From NCBI GenBank assembly GCA_032433595.1, contig JASWJB010000035.1, positions 62,001 through 126,000 on the forward strand: DNA of 64,000 nt, read 5' to 3'. A program made the position numbers and the translations under genes. The notes under the pieces are model-generated. The model made no database searches. It was not told the origin of the DNA and worked only from the letters and a program-made list of their open reading frames with translations. This stretch comes from Conoideocrella luteorostrata (lineage: Eukaryota; Ascomycota; Sordariomycetes; Hypocreales; Clavicipitaceae). Of this stretch, positions 2,886 to 11,428 are shown piece by piece (position 1 is the first letter of the stretch; every line of letters starts with the position of its first letter).

Positions 2886-5800
2886 ATGGGGCCACATATC
2901 GCGGCAAAAAACACAGCGTCAGGTAGCCAATTCTTCGCAGATGGCCCCGGGGACCAGAACGTGGCCTCTGGTAATGGGTTCCAGTACAATGACCGCAGTG
3001 AGCATCGCAGCATTACGAGTGAGGCCGCCCCCCCCACCCATATATTTTGCAGTCCGAACCCGCTCAATGTCGCCGTCGCTGACTACCACATTAAGTCAAC
3101 TTCTCTGGCATGACATCAATACGGCACCTGAATCAAGCAATCAATGAATTAGATAGCAATTTCGATGAACCTACGCGTAGGATATCCAATTCTTTGGGTT
3201 TCAAAACCCTTGTCCAACACCTATCCTACTAACTCGTATGTAAGGGAGTACCATCATGGACTGGCTCATGCGTCAACCAAACTGGTCTCCCCAAGACAGT
3301 CACCAGCAGCACGTCGAGCTGCTCAGCAAAGTAGTTCCCGGCACAGGCAAATGGATTCTTTCCAATGATGATTTTCAGACTTGGAAAGATCCTTCGAGTT
3401 CATTGCGTGTTCTGCCGCTGCATGGCATATGTAGGTGTAAACAAGGATGCTTAAGTCTCTTGGACTCGCTAACCATGATACGTCTCTCAAAGTGGGATCG
3501 GGAAAGTCTATGCTTCTGTACGCTGTTTCTATTTCGGGAAAAAAAAAATGTCAGCTACTGAAAATTTTCATCTTAATGCTAACATTTTCCTTAGCTCCAT
3601 CATCATACAGTCAATAAAGAACGAAATCGAAGGACAAGGCAACGCTGCGTGCATCTACTTCTACTTTCAAGATGAAGAAGATGCTTTTTGGCCCGCAAGC
3701 GTCTGGTTCGCGTTATTAAAGCAACTTCTGCAGCACGAAAGCTCCAGTTGTATCGCTCCGGAGCTGAAATCCAAGTTCAGTGATTCGTTTCAAGGCGCGT
3801 CGCAGAGGCATACGCTCGATTACTGGAATCTGCTGAAGGCTCAGGCTGAAGAATTCCAGACAGTCTATCTAATTCTTGACGATCCAGACAGTCACTTAAT
3901 TCACGATGGAAGCAAGCGGCAGATGATTTGGGACGCTCTGAGGAAGCTGCCGCTCAACATAAAACTGCTCTTCACGTCCAGGACAGACCAGCTTGCGCGC
4001 CATCTCGATGTAGACCGCGGTCTGGACATCAAACCAACAGCGACTGACATAAATGTATATGTAAATAGTCGGATTAACAGCGACGTAAACTTGAGTCGGG
4101 TGCTGGTAGAGTCCCGGGATAGAGCGTCTGTGGTTAAAGCAGTTACCTCCCTCACTACTAAGAGCGGCATGTTAGTCTCACGATTCATCCATCCTTTAGG
4201 CAATGCTTATATCATTCTTCTGACCGAGTCCAGGTTCCTTTTGGCAAGGCTGCACCTGGATGGCCTCAGCAAGCACGGCACTCTGGCTGATATTACAGAT
4301 GCCCTTAATCGTCTTCCTTCAGATGAAATCCGCGCGTTCGAGTCCGCGGTCCATCTGATTACCAAAAAGCATGACCAATTCTATAGAGAGCTGGCCAAAC
4401 ACGTCCTCACCTGGATTGTCCATGCAAACGTTGGCCTTAAGATCGAGCAGGTCCAAGATAGCTTTGCCATACAACGCAGCAAAACCGGACAGTACCGAAA
4501 GCATCGGCCTACCGAGGAGTCTTTGATATCTGCAGGCGCCGGCTTGGTCATTAAAGACCCAGACAATGGTACACTGCGCCTTGTCCACGAGTCCGCAAAG
4601 AAATACCTACAGAAACACAACGTTATGTACCAACAGGCCAACTTGATAATAGCGAAAACATGTCTATCCTATCTTATGGCCGACGAGACGAGCAATGAGA
4701 GGCAAAGCCCCCTGCTATCATACGCTGCAAGTCACTGGAACTCGCATCTAGGCAAGGACTGTCGGCTCGCCGACCCGGAGGCCAGCAGACTCATTAAAGA
4801 CTTCCTTAGTGACCGCCTTAAGCTCACGAGAGCATTCAAGGCCCTGCCTGACGCCCCAAGCTCTGGTTTGGACGGTATTACCGGGCTGCATGCCGCCGTC
4901 TACTTTGACCTTCGCTCGTCCGCCAAAGCCCTCATCAAGGCGGGCGTAGATGTCAATGCGAGATGTTCCGATGGCCAGACAGCTATGCACTGGGCCGTTA
5001 GGCTTGGCCGCCGTGAGCTGTTGAAGTATTTGATAAGCAAGTCAGCAGACACGAACATGTGCGATAAGGCCAAAAGCACGCCACTTCACATGGCCCTCAT
5101 GGTGCCAGAGACAAAGGGCATCAAAATCGTGCAGATCCTGGTCGATTGCGGCGCCAAAGTTGACATTTGTGGCTCAAACGGGCTGTCAGCTTTGTTTTCA
5201 TCTTTTAAATATGGACCAACAGCCATTGCGGAGATATTAGCGAAGAGCCAGAAGAGGCATGGCCGGTTGGATGCTGAAATCACTCCCGGGTGGACTTGTC
5301 TAAGAGAATTGTTCAGTCTTGACCCCAACATAGTAAAGCTATCTAGCAGCTCGGCCGACGAGTGGCGTAGTCTGAGAAAGACTGTCGACAATCACGTCAG
5401 ATATCTCATAGGTCTCGTGCTTGATCAAGACGTGGAGCTCAATCGGCCCACAACCGATGGCTGGCTGCCCTTGATACATGCAGTCAAGATGAGGAGTCTC
5501 TCAAGAGTGAGGCATCTTTTAGAAAGATATCCACGCCCGGCAGACGTAAATCAACGTGGTCCCAAAGATGAAAAGACACCACTCCGATGGGCCTTCACCT
5601 ATCCTTGCCCCCCCATGGTGCCGCTACTGATCGAACACGGAGCAGACGTGAATGAGAGCAACGCCGACGGGTGGACGCCACTGATCCAGGCTGTAAAGGA
5701 AAACAACGAAGAAATCGTCTGGTTGCTTCTGCAAAACGGTGCCCGGCCAGATACGAAGGATACCAAGATGTGGTCGGCGCTGCTTTATGCTATTGAAGGC

Positions 5801-6655
5801 GGCAATAAAAACATTGTGTGGCTATTGGTTTCCAAGAAGGCAGATGTTTGTCTCCTTAACAACAAGGCCCTCGACTTATCCTTGAGTATCAAAAACCATT
5901 CCATTGCTTGGCTGCTGTGTGAAAACGGAGCCGACGCCAATACAGCCGATGATAAAGGCATGACACCACTGCATCGGGCTACACGCGATGGTTATTCCAG
6001 AGACGTCGGCTTTCTACTTGACCGGGGCGTAGACGTCAGCTCCCAGGAAAATACAAATGGGTGGACTCCCCTGCATCTTGCCGTGCTGGATAAGAATGAC
6101 AGCATAGTTAAGCAGTTGGCAGAGCATGCGTCACAGAAAGGACATATCAACGTAAAAGACAACGGCGACAACACTGCCCTCATGTTTGCAACGATGCGGC
6201 GCAGCAGGTCTATTATGCAGACGCTTCTTCAGCACGATGCCTCCTGTGATATGCATGGTCCCGGCGGCTTAACAGCACTCCATCTAGCCGCGATGGGAGG
6301 GTTCAACGACGGGCTGCGCATGATGATGAACATGACCAATAATGTCAACCAGGCGGACAATAAGGGTTACTCGGCGTTGCATCATGCGGTGTACAGCCTC
6401 GAGGCCGACGTTGAGACTATACGCATCCTCGCGTGCAGAGCAAACCACAATGCCGAAGAAGGACAAAGTTCGTGGACGCCATTGATGCTCGCTGCGTATT
6501 TGGGCAAGGAGGCGTTTGTTCGTAAGCTGCTGGAAGAAGGTGCTGGTGCCGGTGCGCGGAATAGTAAAGGCCAGACTGCTACAGATGTAATGAAACAGGA
6601 GTGCGAGGGGATACGAACGCTGCTTAAGGAGGCACACCTAGCAAGAATGATATGA
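2886..6655 (+). CDS. NACHT-ankyrin NLR with N-terminal sigma-type amyloid motif
   Basis: Proposed exons are 2886-2997, 3245-3430, 3493-3517 and 3595-6655, 1127 aa. All joins keep frame. Residues 13-28 carry an amyloid-type motif (GSQFFADGPGDQNVAS) matching the C termini of the two SesA-like neighbours. NACHT follows: the PGTGKW linker typical of fungal NLRs, Walker A GILGSGKS at 98-105 (restored only by splicing), Walker B YLILDD near 199-204, and LLFTSR near 232. A winged-helix-like part (LVHESAKKYL) comes next, then about 14-15 ankyrin repeats from about 525 to 1110. The repeats are divergent from one another, not near-identical. By family knowledge it would be a cytoplasmic receptor that oligomerises on ligand binding and exposes the N-terminal motif. 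Introns 2 and 3 have CTAAC branch sites close to the acceptor. Intron 1 (247 bp) is long and could hide another exon. Least certain is exon 1. NACHT and ankyrin identity is firm. Confidence 0.88.
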
Positions 6656-6806
6656 AATACACTTCGTGATATAGTGGGTTAATATACATATATCATACCT
6701 GCCTTGATTCCAGAAAGCACCAATCTAGACGTTAACTCATGATACCCATATATTAGACCGGACACCCAATTTGACACCTTGGCTGTTAAAACGCCTTAAT
6801 TTCGAC

Positions 6807-7442
6807 TCAACCACTAGTAAAGTTGAAAGTGCCACCATCAATCGCCCCATTAATTTGGGTCGCTGCGTCGCTCGCGATGTTCTGGTTTCCAACTCCGCTA
6901 TTGACATACTGTGTACCCAACCCCTTATTCCGCAAGTATACAACCTCTCTGTGGGCATCCCGGGGTATTTTTTCCTTTCTATTATTCATGTGCGCCACCA
7001 AGGTCTCGATCTGTGTCCTAGTGGCTGACCTGAACGCGTAATTCGCGGTCAGGACTTGCAGGTCCCCCATAATCCCGCCAACGAGCTGATCTACAGTCTT
7101 CGCCTTGGACATTGCTTTCAGCATCATGAGACGCCTCGTCGTCGGCGATACCCCTGCCGCCGGGATCACGGCTTGAAAGACATCACATAGCGAGGTGGCC
7201 TTCACTGAGCAGGCTTGGAGGGTTTGTTTCAGCGCAACATGGGACTCGTCGGATGAAGCATCAGCGTCGAGGCCTTGATTCGCCATCACCAGACTGTCTT
7301 GGATTACAGGAAGGCGGGCGGCGATGTCGCGAAATGAGGGCGGTAAGCCGGATGTGTCTCCACTGGCTCTATAGATTTTTATGGAGGCATCGATGAGCGT
7401 AATGATGCCGGAAATGAGGCCAATGATCTCTGCTCCTGACAT
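6807..7442 (-). CDS. sesA-like: SesA-like protein with C-terminal sigma-type motif
   Basis: Intronless frame of 211 aa. Residues 1-165 match the SesA domain family found at the N terminus of fungal NACHT proteins: start MSGAEIIGLISGIITLID, the SGLPPSFRDIAARLP block, and the late block AKTVDQLVGGIMGDLQVL. Residues 176-191 read GTQYVNSGVGNQNIAS and align without gaps with the NLR residues 13-28 and with the second SesA-like protein. Such stand-alone proteins are the presumed partners that NLR-borne sigma motifs recruit by amyloid templating, with a role in incompatibility or regulated cell death. Function of the helical domain is inferred, not seen. The gene is tail-to-tail with the NLR (151 bp between stops) and divergent from the next gene. 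Confidence 0.85.
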   Translation of the reverse strand: MSGAEIIGLISGIITLIDASIKIYRASGDTSGLPPSFRDIAARLPVIQDSLVMANQGLDADASSDESHVALKQTLQACSVKATSLCDVFQAVIPAAGVSPTTRRLMMLKAMSKAKTVDQLVGGIMGDLQVLTANYAFRSATRTQIETLVAHMNNRKEKIPRDAHREVVYLRNKGLGTQYVNSGVGNQNIASDAATQINGAIDGGTFNFTSG

Positions 7443-7854
7443 TGTAGAGCAGCTATATTGAAAAAAGGCGATGTAGAACTGATATGCCGAGTTTTACTGT
7501 AAGCTTGAAAGTCGTTCCTCATAATGTCCGCATTCTGGATGATAATCCCGTCCTCCCGTCCTCCCGTCCTCCTCCCACTCTTTTTTTTTTTTTTTCTGCA
7601 ACGCAGTGTGGCTGTGTTGCAGCACTGCAGATATTATGCATAGTGAGTGATTGGGTACAAACCTCCCAGCCTGGCCGCCTTGCATTTGGTTCGCCTCGTC
7701 GTGTCACATTTATTGATACCCTGGCATGCCATTTCGCACGGCTCCAGGACACCTCGCACTCTGTCACAACCTCGCTTGCTATCACCAGAATCAAGCTGGT
7801 TTATTTGTGTGACTGCTCAGTACCACCCAGATTGCCATTCACACAATCATCACA
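7443..7854. promoter_or_regulatory. Shared divergent promoter region of the two SesA-like genes
   Basis: The 412-bp gap separates the start codons of two SesA-like genes transcribed away from each other, so both promoters must lie here. It contains repeated CCCGTCCTCC units at about 7548-7575 followed by a run of T residues ending near 7595. No specific factor site could be named. Confidence 0.45.
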
Positions 7855-8547
7855 ATGCCACGCGAAGTGACCAAGACCAATGTCATTAGGTGTCTCCGTG
7901 ATGCCATCGACGCCCTCGAAAAAGCTTCCAAGTCTTGTGATCCAGTCCACGAGGCTGCCAACGTGCCGTCCACGGCCTTCACCGTCGTCGCCAACCACAT
8001 TTCCACGGTGCTCAAATTATTCACCTCCATCAACACGGTCTTTAACTCTCTTGAGAATGACAAGCAGTGGGAAGAGCAAGGACAGCTCAGTGACATGTAC
8101 CCGAAACTCTGCAAGGTCACTAAGGATTGCAGCAATCATGCCCGCTGCCTTGAAGATCTCTTTGAGACTGTTACGGAGAACGGCGACGACGCCGAGACCA
8201 AGATAAAGAAGTACCGGTCAGTCGTCCAAGACAACCAGGGCAAGAAGGTGGAAGATGTCATGCTTGACTTGCTGAATGCTGCTCTCCTTGCCGCCGTGAA
8301 GCCCCTGGTTGGCGATGAACAAATCCAGGAGCTGCGAGAGGCGTTGCAGGAGGTGAATGGTCTCCCACCGTCGTTGGTTGACAGCTCTGATGCAAGTGTT
8401 ATTATGAACAACTATCAATCTGGCTCTCAGTTCTATAACGGTGGTCCTGGGGACCAGAATCATTGCAGTGGGGGGTTCATGGTTACGGGAAAACCTTCGA
8501 GCTCCACCTTTAACTACCACTCGAAGGCAGCTCCCGCCGTGGATTAG
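7855..8547 (+). CDS. sesA-like: Second SesA-like protein with sigma-type motif close to the NLR's
   Basis: Intronless frame of 230 aa. The body is helical and SesA-like: a C-x-N-H-x-R-x-L-E-D-L-F block and the GKKVEDVMLDLLNAALLA block correspond in order to those of the minus-strand neighbour, but the rest differs a lot. The tail at residues 190-205 reads GSQFYNGGPGDQNHCS. It shares 11 of 16 positions with the NLR motif, including GSQF and GPGDQN, more than the first SesA-like protein does, so this is the better candidate cognate partner of the NLR. After the motif comes a short S/T-rich tail. No membrane segment or signal peptide. The ATG has a good context (ACAATGCC). Role in amyloid-triggered cell death is inferred from family knowledge and gene neighbourhood. 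Confidence 0.82.
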   Translation: MPREVTKTNVIRCLRDAIDALEKASKSCDPVHEAANVPSTAFTVVANHISTVLKLFTSINTVFNSLENDKQWEEQGQLSDMYPKLCKVTKDCSNHARCLEDLFETVTENGDDAETKIKKYRSVVQDNQGKKVEDVMLDLLNAALLAAVKPLVGDEQIQELREALQEVNGLPPSLVDSSDASVIMNNYQSGSQFYNGGPGDQNHCSGGFMVTGKPSSSTFNYHSKAAPAVD

Positions 8548-9737
8548 GCTACTCGCAGTAGGTAATAATGCGGGGCTCTCGGTATACATGGAAGAAATTG
8601 ACATTGCTACGCCACATGTAGCAGGACGTCTGGCATTTACATATGCATAAATTACTATCCAAGATTGGACATGTCGTCGCCAGAAACTGAAATGAACAGC
8701 TAAGATACGTGCAATCCATTCCATAATCTGTAATATTAAATGGTGATCGGACATGTGTCGTAGTATTTAACAAGTCCGCGAAACATGTACTAATGACCCG
8801 TGGGTTTTCGATTACATCTGCACATGTGTTATCCCTCCTTCTCTGCAAAGAAGACAGCTACATAACCGTTGTCGCAAAAGCGATGGCCGACAATAGAATA
8901 CTAGTTGTTAATCCCAGCCGGTAATTTTGGTGCAAGACACATATTCCCCCATTAATTGCACGCCTGACCACACATACCCATGAAGAGACACTATGCAACA
9001 ATAATTTTTGAGACTCCAAGCCAACACTTTATTGTTGCAGACCGCTGGTGGGCAACTACAAAGGCATGTCCCAATGCGGAATAAATGCTATCGGCGCACC
9101 AAGGCGATGACTGATTTCTCGCTCGCATATGTCCAGTCAAGCTGTCTGTTAAAAATTATCTCCCTATTTGCTAGTAGCTGAATTCTTAACCCTTGCACTG
9201 TGTAAGGTTATCATGGAGAAGTTTGACGTCGTTCTTTACTGAAGGCTTCGTGCCAGCTCTACTGTATGCCGAAACACCCACTGCATTTCCTCCTCGTCAG
9301 GAGTCGCATATGTTATTCGTCTACATAACAAGCTCCTCAGCTTAGCTCTCTTCTACAAGTGTATTTGCCTTGAATATTATTTTCGTCTCGCTCTGTGTTC
9401 TCCCGTCGTTCCACCCAATATTTTAGTTACCGAAAACGGTCGGCATAGCTCTCGAATTTTCGAAAATCAGTGCCAAAGCCAATTGCGACCCTGTAGAGTA
9501 GCACCGAGGGTTGCTGGTGCGCGCGTCGATTGGGCCATCCTGCTTCACTGAACTCATTCTTGAAGTACGCAATCCCAAGTGCCGTCGAACCGGTAATTGG
9601 AAGAAAGATCAATGATCAAGCTCTACTTCTGGCCAAGAGCTTGCACATAAGGCTGACAGACACAGTTGAGGACCCATAACTCTGCAATCAACCTTGCCGT
9701 CCTTGTCCAGTTGAGTTACGTCCTTAGGAACGGGTCC
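8548..9737. other. Gene-free stretch
   Basis: About 1.2 kb, AT-rich, with stops in all frames. I see no gene, RNA or repeat. It separates the SesA/NLR cluster from a decayed ARG5,6 fragment. Confidence 0.55.
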
Positions 9738-10105
9738 TCATAGATGATTTTTGCGCTTGGTATAACGTTTGGGCTCCTGGTCGCAGAGTTCTCGAGAAGA
9801 TATATGTCGAAGGTCCATGTTGGGGTGCTTGTTGAGAAGATCGATCAAGGCTTGGCCAGTATAGCCGCAGGCCCCAACGTGGCCAATCCGGGATGGCGTC
9901 TTGTTGGAGGCATTATTTATGCCTAAGGGCAGGTTCGTACTTGTGTTGATAGCATAGGACAGACGTCCTGTAGAAGAGAGGCAACGGGCTTTAGGCGATG
10001 ATGGTGTTTCGACCGAGTGATATCTTTGGCATTGACTCCGCGACGAATCGTGAGAGCAACGCAGCGGGTGTCGAAGCGCACCGGCCCACAAGTAGCAGAA
10101 AGCAT
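9738..10105 (-). pseudogene. ARG5,6: Fragment of ARG5,6 (acetylglutamate kinase/acetylglutamyl-phosphate reductase)
   Basis: On the minus strand one frame encodes SRIGHVGACGYTGQALIDLL followed by NKHPNMDLRHISSREL. This is the start of the N-acetyl-gamma-glutamyl-phosphate reductase half of the mitochondrial arginine-biosynthesis polyprotein. The nucleotide-binding GARGYTGQ is altered to GACGYTGQ, and the frame stops about 15 residues after SSREL, so nearly all of the reductase is missing. Just upstream, another frame begins MLSATCGPVRFDTRCVAL, which looks like a mitochondrial leader. The kinase part expected between leader and reductase is absent. The frame change, deletion and truncation argue for a non-functional duplicate. 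The intact gene is not in this window. The leader assignment is the weaker part. Confidence 0.7.
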
Positions 10106-11428
10106 GGTTCCAGTAAGAGCGAGCCCAATTGGTCATTGGGCCAGTAGAGCCGGTTAGATGCCCACGGTACACTGCTTGTGATGTATGGTACATGAAAATA
10201 TTTAATCCAAACTTACTGGCGCCCTTCACCGTATTTACAAATACTCAATGACTTCAATCATCAAGTCATTCATTCTTCTAATTTGAGCGACTTACATTTT
10301 TCTTGCTATCCGGTTCCGCGCCAACTGGCAGCTAAGACGCTCGTAATAAAACGGGACGAAACCCTTTATCGGAGAAGACGGGACCAAATGGCAAGTAAAT
10401 GGAATCGAACCAATATGCAAGATAATTAACTGCTCTTGGGTAATTAGGATAAATAGTGGATACAATCACACTCTATACACTTGGCTTAGTAGACGTTTTG
10501 CTATCCGGGATTCTGTTCAATAGTCCCTCGCGTTCTAATAATAAAGCAGGGAATACATGGGGAGCCCTAGAGTGGTCGCTTTCTCAACTACCCAAAAGCA
10601 AGTGGCAGCATTTACCTCTAAACCGAAGGGGGCACCCATATCGGATCCCGCATGGATTTCTTCTGAGGATATTTACGGCGAAATCAGCCGATGCGTTGAT
10701 CCCCTCGCCGCCGATGTTGCTCGAACGAGAAACGAGAAAACGACCATCTGGCAGTACAAGCCAGAGCTGGCCCGGGTTGTGATGCGCATCGGCGACTTCG
10801 TCTTACGATACGAGACTGGAAAAGAACCCGACCATGTGTTGCCGAATGATCGAGGAGCCAGGAGGCAGCAGCCAGGATGGCACTCATCAAGTTCCGCCTG
10901 GTTTCTAGCACGATTCGTCCCTTCGAGCTAAATCTGGAAATTATAAGGAGCGGAAATTTTCCCGGTCATAGCTTAGAATGATTACTCCGTACAAAGTGCA
11001 GATATACAGGATTCCTGCAGGTCTGGGGGTTGATAAGGCATTAAGTTTATTAACGCTCGTGAGGAGCAGATAATTGTATGATTTTTCCAGGATATAGACG
11101 TCCTAGAGAGACGAGAGAACTCGGTCCAAACTCACGACCCTTTATTTTCATGGTGTTACCAACAAATATGGCTGGATGCCGTTTACACGGATACAGAGCC
11201 GGGTTGTGTCACCCCAATGCGGGGCCGTGCCGACTGTTGTAGCTCCTCCCCAGATATTTAGCCTCGGCACTTACAACATACAAACTGCTCAGCCGAACAC
11301 CCAACACCACTAACAAAAAGCTCCCTCTCTCTTTCTCTGTTTCTATTCACATACCATCCATTCATTCATCACCCTCTCAAGTATTTCCAAACCGTAGAAG
11401 CTGTCAAACTCCCTGCATCCAGCCCACC
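10106..11428. other. Intergenic region with one doubtful ORF
   Basis: Mostly non-coding. A plus-strand ORF at 10557-10931 (GAPISDPAWISSEDIYGEIS, then PELARVVMRIGDFVLRYETG) has a protein-like composition and weakly recalls the start of fungal phosphotransferase (APH-like) proteins, but no catalytic motif follows, so it may be a remnant. A TACTCCGTAC repeat lies at 10983-10992. The part next to 11429 is the SDR gene leader, rich in CT. Confidence 0.35.

Follow-up and report, generated by a model that had tools for sequence, protein, structure and literature searches.

A NACHT-ankyrin NLR and two unlike SesA proteins of Conoideocrella luteorostrata carry a common GDQN-group tag and probably form one receptor-effector unit

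In the genome of Conoideocrella luteorostrata (Clavicipitaceae, Hypocreales), a NACHT-ankyrin NLR gene adjoins two genes for SesA-like proteins, here SesA1 and SesA2, and the locus raises the question of whether one receptor could address two effectors through a single amyloid-type tag, and to which family such a tag belongs. The three genes lie in a 64-kb stretch of DNA (the window; positions are counted from its first letter), with the NLR on the plus strand at 2886-6655, SesA1 on the minus strand at 7442-6807, and SesA2 on the plus strand at 7855-8547. The NLR (stop codon at 6653-6655) and SesA1 stand tail to tail, their stops 151 bases apart, and SesA1 and SesA2 stand head to head, their starts 412 bases apart. 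A SesB-type hydrolase was not found beside the NLR among the four flanking open reading frames scanned. Pfam models detected NPHP3_N (1.2e-22) and ankyrin repeats (2.1e-82) in the NLR, the NACHT model itself scoring under its own cut-off, and the protein combines a NACHT-type NTPase with superstructure repeats, as fungal STAND/NLR proteins do. Both neighbours passed the cut-off of 26.3 bits for the SesA domain PF17107, SesA1 with 101.3 bits (5e-29) and the more divergent SesA2 with 52.7 bits (6e-14), which confirmed the SesA-like partners proposed in a first-pass annotation of this DNA.

One 16-residue motif is shared by the N terminus of the NLR and the C-terminal ends of SesA1 and SesA2. When it was written as a regular expression and run on the six frames of the window, exactly three matches were obtained, at 2922-2969 (plus), 6870-6917 (minus) and 8422-8469 (plus), just where the first-pass annotation had placed them, and 200 dinucleotide shuffles gave none. 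This pattern was drawn from its own three matches, and independent tests were therefore added. A profile was built from the N termini of 19 of 81 NLR relatives, all of other species and selected by eye for deposited models that retain the segment, and it was run on 4093 six-frame ORFs from the window and 14 further stretches of the same genome. The first four ranks were taken by the NLR exon (2.7e-16), an NLR paralogue on contig C2 (2.8e-11), SesA1 (2.2e-6) and SesA2 (5.7e-4; best single domain 0.0027), and five other tags (C384, C150, C2 SesA, C119 SesA and C458) gave E-values of 0.094 to 3.9. A second profile, made from the tails of 39 of 41 SesA1 relatives and run on the same ORFs, ranked SesA1 (1.2e-23), SesA2 (5.9e-13) and the NLR exon (5e-11) at the top; the sigma-type C119 SesA (1.5e-10) and C2 SesA (1e-7) came close behind, so this profile is not specific. 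Furthermore, hhalign aligned the untrimmed NLR N termini with the SesA tails at a probability of 97.8 (E 1.1e-12), compared with 0.4 for the SesA globular part and 3.8 for the highest of 20 column-shuffled controls.

The whole 46.4-Mb genome was also searched at E ≤ 1. Besides itself, the NLR exon matched the C2 NLR (E 0.016) and, with 62% identity, SesA2 (E 0.008), whose tail was its best effector match genome-wide; the SesA2 tail matched itself and the NLR exon (0.005), and the SesA1 tail matched itself alone. Both E-values that link SesA2 and the NLR exon are modest. Taken together with the profiles, the sharing of the tag by the NLR, SesA1 and SesA2 exceeds chance, and the proposal of one amyloid-type motif common to the receptor N terminus and the effector C termini was borne out by both the regular expression and the independent profiles.

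Does the motif exon belong to the NLR gene at all? In the public model, QQS21_002828 (P0045), the protein begins with the ATG at 3256, the motif exon is missing, and the intron at 4171-4233 is read through. If that start were correct, the motif exon would lie outside the gene and its likeness to the SesA tails would be a relic, a reading that we consider very improbable. In a refined six-exon model, exon 1 (2886-2997) carries the ATG and the GDQN/sigma-like tag identified by the tag profiles; its motif at 2922-2969 corresponds to residues 13-28, and a third repeat then runs to about 2996. Exon 2 (3096-3176), a putative linker, is in frame and aligns with the linkers of the NLR relatives P0046, P0047 and P0048, the NLR N-terminal profile matching its frame weakly (E 1.3). 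Exon 3 (3245-3430) leads up to the P-loop, which exon 4 (3493-3517) encodes (GSGKS); exon 5 (3595-4170) holds NACHT/NPHP3_N, and exon 6 (4234-6655) a winged-helix-like part and the ankyrin repeats, all six exons being on the plus strand. The five introns, of 98, 68, 62, 77 and 63 bases (the first two at 2998-3095 and 3177-3244), are all GT-AG, and CTAAC- or CTGAC-type branch sites were seen by eye toward their ends. The refined model, a sequence-based one placed with the relatives' linkers as guide, thereby restores the linker and keeps the frame open over 1133 residues. Tag, linker and NACHT are moreover annotated as one protein in relatives from several genera, including Trichoderma, Fusarium and Xylariales members, and in a check for absence of the motif among orthologues, NLR relatives of other species were found to carry it N-terminally. 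There is also a precedent at the s locus of Nectria haematococca, where the tag of the receptor het-eN was at first overlooked because an intron had been missed; as at the window locus, annotation had skipped the first intron of the receptor (PMC3321046). Thus, exon 1 is probably joined to NACHT in frame through a linker exon, itself probably at 3096-3176. The exon at 2886-2997 of the first-pass annotation is supported, with the correction that a linker exon stands between it and the exon at 3245. The public gene model severs the signalling exon from the receptor.

The first-pass annotation had linked the motif to NLRs with sigma-type motifs (NACHT_sigma). However, the Pfam model NACHT_sigma (PF17106) scored the NLR at 13.9 bits (E 0.06), below its curated cut-off of 27.6, and did not match SesA1 or SesA2 at E ≤ 1; the GDQN motif fits instead. 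GDQN was reported in 2025 from Fusarium oxysporum, where an NLR carries the pattern NxxxGxQYxxxGxGDQNxVSxxxxQxN N-terminally and a SesA protein carries it C-terminally, and its authors treat it as a new family (PMC12261475). The same arrangement, NLR N terminus and neighbouring SesA C terminus, was found at the window locus. None of the three window tags matches the exact pattern. If Y/F, D/N, V/A and S/T exchanges are allowed, the NLR and SesA1 tags fit it; that of SesA2 fits in the core alone and is the farthest from the consensus. The exact pattern occurred in 5 of the 81 NLR relatives, all from Fusarium and two of them from F. oxysporum, one carrier being P0048, which is 46% identical to the window NLR over the scored part; it occurred in none of the 41 SesA1-relative tails. 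Given the five exact matches and the conservative fit of the NLR and SesA1, the tag is best named GDQN.

How GDQN relates to sigma was examined by comparing profiles, that of sigma being made from the seven sigma tags of this genome. Probabilities of 85.3 and 85.1 were obtained, and 100 column shuffles of each comparison reached maxima of 65.6 and 28.9, none of the 100 being as good. Precomputed Pfam matches listed the sigma model for 3 of the 41 SesA1 relatives (P0023, P0036 and P0039) and for none of the 82 NLR matches. The sigma motif, as defined by Daskalov in 2012, consists of three repeats, which are of type A (GxGxQFNxx) or type B (GGTQNINT) (PMC3321046); on inspection, the window tag shows three repeats about nine residues apart, but its letters differ from those of the A and B repeats. 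These profile likenesses make GDQN a probable offshoot of sigma that has since diverged.

C. luteorostrata itself carries both kinds of tag, with Pfam sigma tags at eight places. At C2, the NLR paralogue with a GDQN-like tag, which scores 25.5 bits against Pfam sigma, slightly under the cut-off, lies near SesA-sigma and NACHT_N-sigma proteins; C119 holds a SesA-sigma protein and one with a HET domain that bears its sigma tag at the C terminus, and NLRs with sigma tags were found at C23, C141 and C458. Alignment z-scores among 12 tags of this genome set the window trio apart from the seven sigma tags, with the C2 NLR tag grouped with the trio but aligning with both sides, and the tag of a decayed SesA at C150 being intermediate. 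This separation suggests that GDQN and sigma tags may serve separate channels.

The tag could instead be a conserved binding motif, either short and linear or pairing through beta-strands, by which receptor and effectors meet without amyloid templating. In section 3.3 of PMC12261475, GDQN was indeed named from prediction and pattern without experiment, and the amyloid nature of the window tag is predicted. Nevertheless, we regard simple pairing as unlikely, since the tag consists of Gly/Asn/Gln-rich repeats about nine residues apart, is placed at the N terminus of the receptor and the C termini of the effectors, and has a profile resembling that of the sigma tags, and since an N-terminal sigma peptide of het-eN is said to form fibrils (unpublished results cited in PMC3321046).

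The two SesA proteins sharing the tag are otherwise unlike. Their bodies are 13% identical, and direct comparison shows no clear kinship between them. SesA1 has a hydrophobic first helix, which is absent from SesA2 and from its relative in Trichoderma ghanense. This helix is likewise absent from the C2 sigma-type SesA proteins and less marked in the C119 SesA. The predicted structure of SesA1 is a bundle of long helices with a tail of low confidence, and it matches MLKL and plant CC domains in a way that would suit, but does not decide for, a HeLo/MLKL-like four-helix bundle with a membrane-active N-terminal helix.

Relatives of the two proteins differ in number as well. The 41 relatives of SesA1 come from Trichoderma, Fusarium, Penicillium, Clonostachys and Xylariales, among others. 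Of these, 23 have the core G.Q[YF]xxxG.G[DN]QN within their last 70 residues. The core also lies within the first 100 residues of 11 of the 81 NLR relatives, among which N-terminally shortened gene models are common, and it was found nowhere else in these SesA1 and NLR relatives. Eight of the 41 SesA1 relatives apparently share a contig with an NLR relative, a ninth (ACHAPA_008107/008106) being added by its consecutive locus tags, and four such pairs in all have consecutive tags. For SesA2, one relative was found, the T. ghanense protein (51% identity, tag recognisable), whose contig seems to hold the T. ghanense NLR relative as well; the protein search depends on shared short words, so this count is a lower bound. 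The first-pass proposal of two alternative partners was therefore not upheld in that form, with apparent co-location with an NLR for 9 of 41 SesA1-type proteins and for the single SesA2 relative found.

The working unit might be an old NLR/SesA1 pair only, with SesA2 as a late arrival that has a function of its own or has lost it, and that keeps the tag through recent copying. The disparity between 41 SesA1 relatives and at least one for SesA2 would agree with this, as would the SesA2 tag straying most from the consensus. Yet the T. ghanense relative retains the tag, seemingly on the contig of an NLR relative, the SesA2 frame is open over 230 residues, and the SesA2 tail heads the effector matches of the NLR exon genome-wide, and we find a late and separate SesA2 rather improbable.

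Several known systems are close to the locus. The GDQN pair of F. oxysporum Fo5176, KAI8417719 (NLR) and KAI8417720 (SesA), has the same motif type at the same termini and consecutive protein accessions, where the window has adjoining genes; that pair is reported with one SesA (PMC12261475), whereas the window has two dissimilar ones, and GDQN stands there as a new family, whereas the profiles from the window genome tie it to sigma. The s locus of N. haematococca comprises sesA, sesB and het-eN with the sigma motif (PMC3321046). It shares with the window a NACHT-ankyrin receptor with an N-terminal tag of three repeats of about nine residues and two neighbouring effectors with C-terminal tags, but its second effector is SesB rather than a second SesA, and the window tag is under the Pfam sigma cut-off. 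Templating of an effector C-terminal tag by a receptor N-terminal tag, proposed for the window, operates in NWD2/HET-S of Podospora anserina and PNT1/HELLP/SBP of Chaetomium globosum, the latter also with one NLR and two effectors; these systems use other motif families (HET-s repeats and PP) and are experimentally supported. Searches of open-licence papers did not turn up a GDQN locus in which SesA genes are doubled. An NLR/SesA GDQN pair (PMC12261475) and sesA as two adjacent copies at STAND-gene loci, noted in 2012 (PMC3321046), are however in print; the locus therefore belongs to a known type, and "undescribed variant", for which the first-pass annotation made it the strongest candidate, is too strong a term. 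The less ordinary aspect is that two unlike SesA bodies stand on one tag.

We thus favour as likely the reading that the NLR, SesA1 and SesA2 work as a single receptor-effector unit in fungal amyloid signalling, with a GDQN-group tag. The gene layout, the common tag and its conservation, and the SesA, NACHT and ankyrin domains are observed; oligomerisation, amyloid folding, templating and cell death are inferred from HET-S/NWD2 and the sesA/sesB/het-eN systems. By that analogy, a cue would be bound by the ankyrin part of the NLR, and the NACHT domain would then oligomerise; the clustered N-terminal GDQN tags would fold into a cross-beta seed, on which the C-terminal tags of both SesA proteins would be templated. 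This assembly would turn on their helical domains, and SesA1 would most likely target membranes and kill the cell or wall it off. In a speculative and doubtful extension, the receptor would use a tag of its own to drive both dissimilar effectors, with a division of labour between them: SesA1 would be a membrane-active executioner, and SesA2, which has no hydrophobic first helix, would co-polymerise and so tune, spread or damp the signal. The GDQN channel, once split from sigma, would then operate alongside it in one cell without cross-talk.

Because GDQN and sigma tags occur in one genome, insulation between amyloid channels becomes testable in C. luteorostrata. The locus supplies sequence evidence for GDQN as a probable diverged branch of sigma, and it extends the motif from one Fusarium pair (PMC12261475) to a locus whose two SesA effectors are unlike each other.

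Elsewhere in the C. luteorostrata genome, the SesA domain and the sigma tag were found in several other arrangements. On contig C119 (stretch L018, G000:C119:54000-63999), a SesA-sigma gene (7299-7919, plus strand) and a gene for a HET-domain protein with a terminal sigma tag (8255-9244, minus strand; PF06985 4e-13, sigma 5e-12) stand tail to tail, and no NPHP3_N match was listed on this contig, a result that concerns only NLRs of the NPHP3_N type. No HET/STAND pairs were found in a 2012 study (PMC3321046), while effectors of the HET and HeLo-like types bearing HRAM, sigma and PP motifs are mentioned in one from 2025 (PMC12261475).

An N-terminal sigma tag was carried by three NLRs, on C23 (L022), C458 (L023) and C141 (L024), and the 10-kb stretch scanned at each of these loci showed no effector with such a tag. 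On C150, a SesA-sigma gene (L028, G000:C150:46000-55999, about 4530-5122) has an in-frame TAA within its SesA part and is apparently decayed. Within the window, the two opening exons of the NLR, which fall in the region 2886-3255, are missing from the public model QQS21_002828, and this model also reads through a likely 63-base intron (4171-4233). In a minus-strand frame at 9738-10244, perhaps a gene relic, 45 residues match a short part of the NAD-binding domain of semialdehyde dehydrogenase (E 3.1e-6).

On C2 (L020 and L021, G000:C2:260000-279999), an NLR paralogue has one SesA-sigma and one NACHT_N-sigma protein nearby. The tag of the paralogue is GDQN-like, whereas those of its neighbours are of the other, sigma type, and the paralogue and its neighbours thus seem mismatched in tag. 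Furthermore, a NACHT-ankyrin frame lies directly downstream of a SesA frame on C384 (L025), C139 (L027) and C278 (L029), with a weak sigma-like stretch at the SesA ends of C384 and C278. These frames are perhaps all-in-one SesA-NLR genes.
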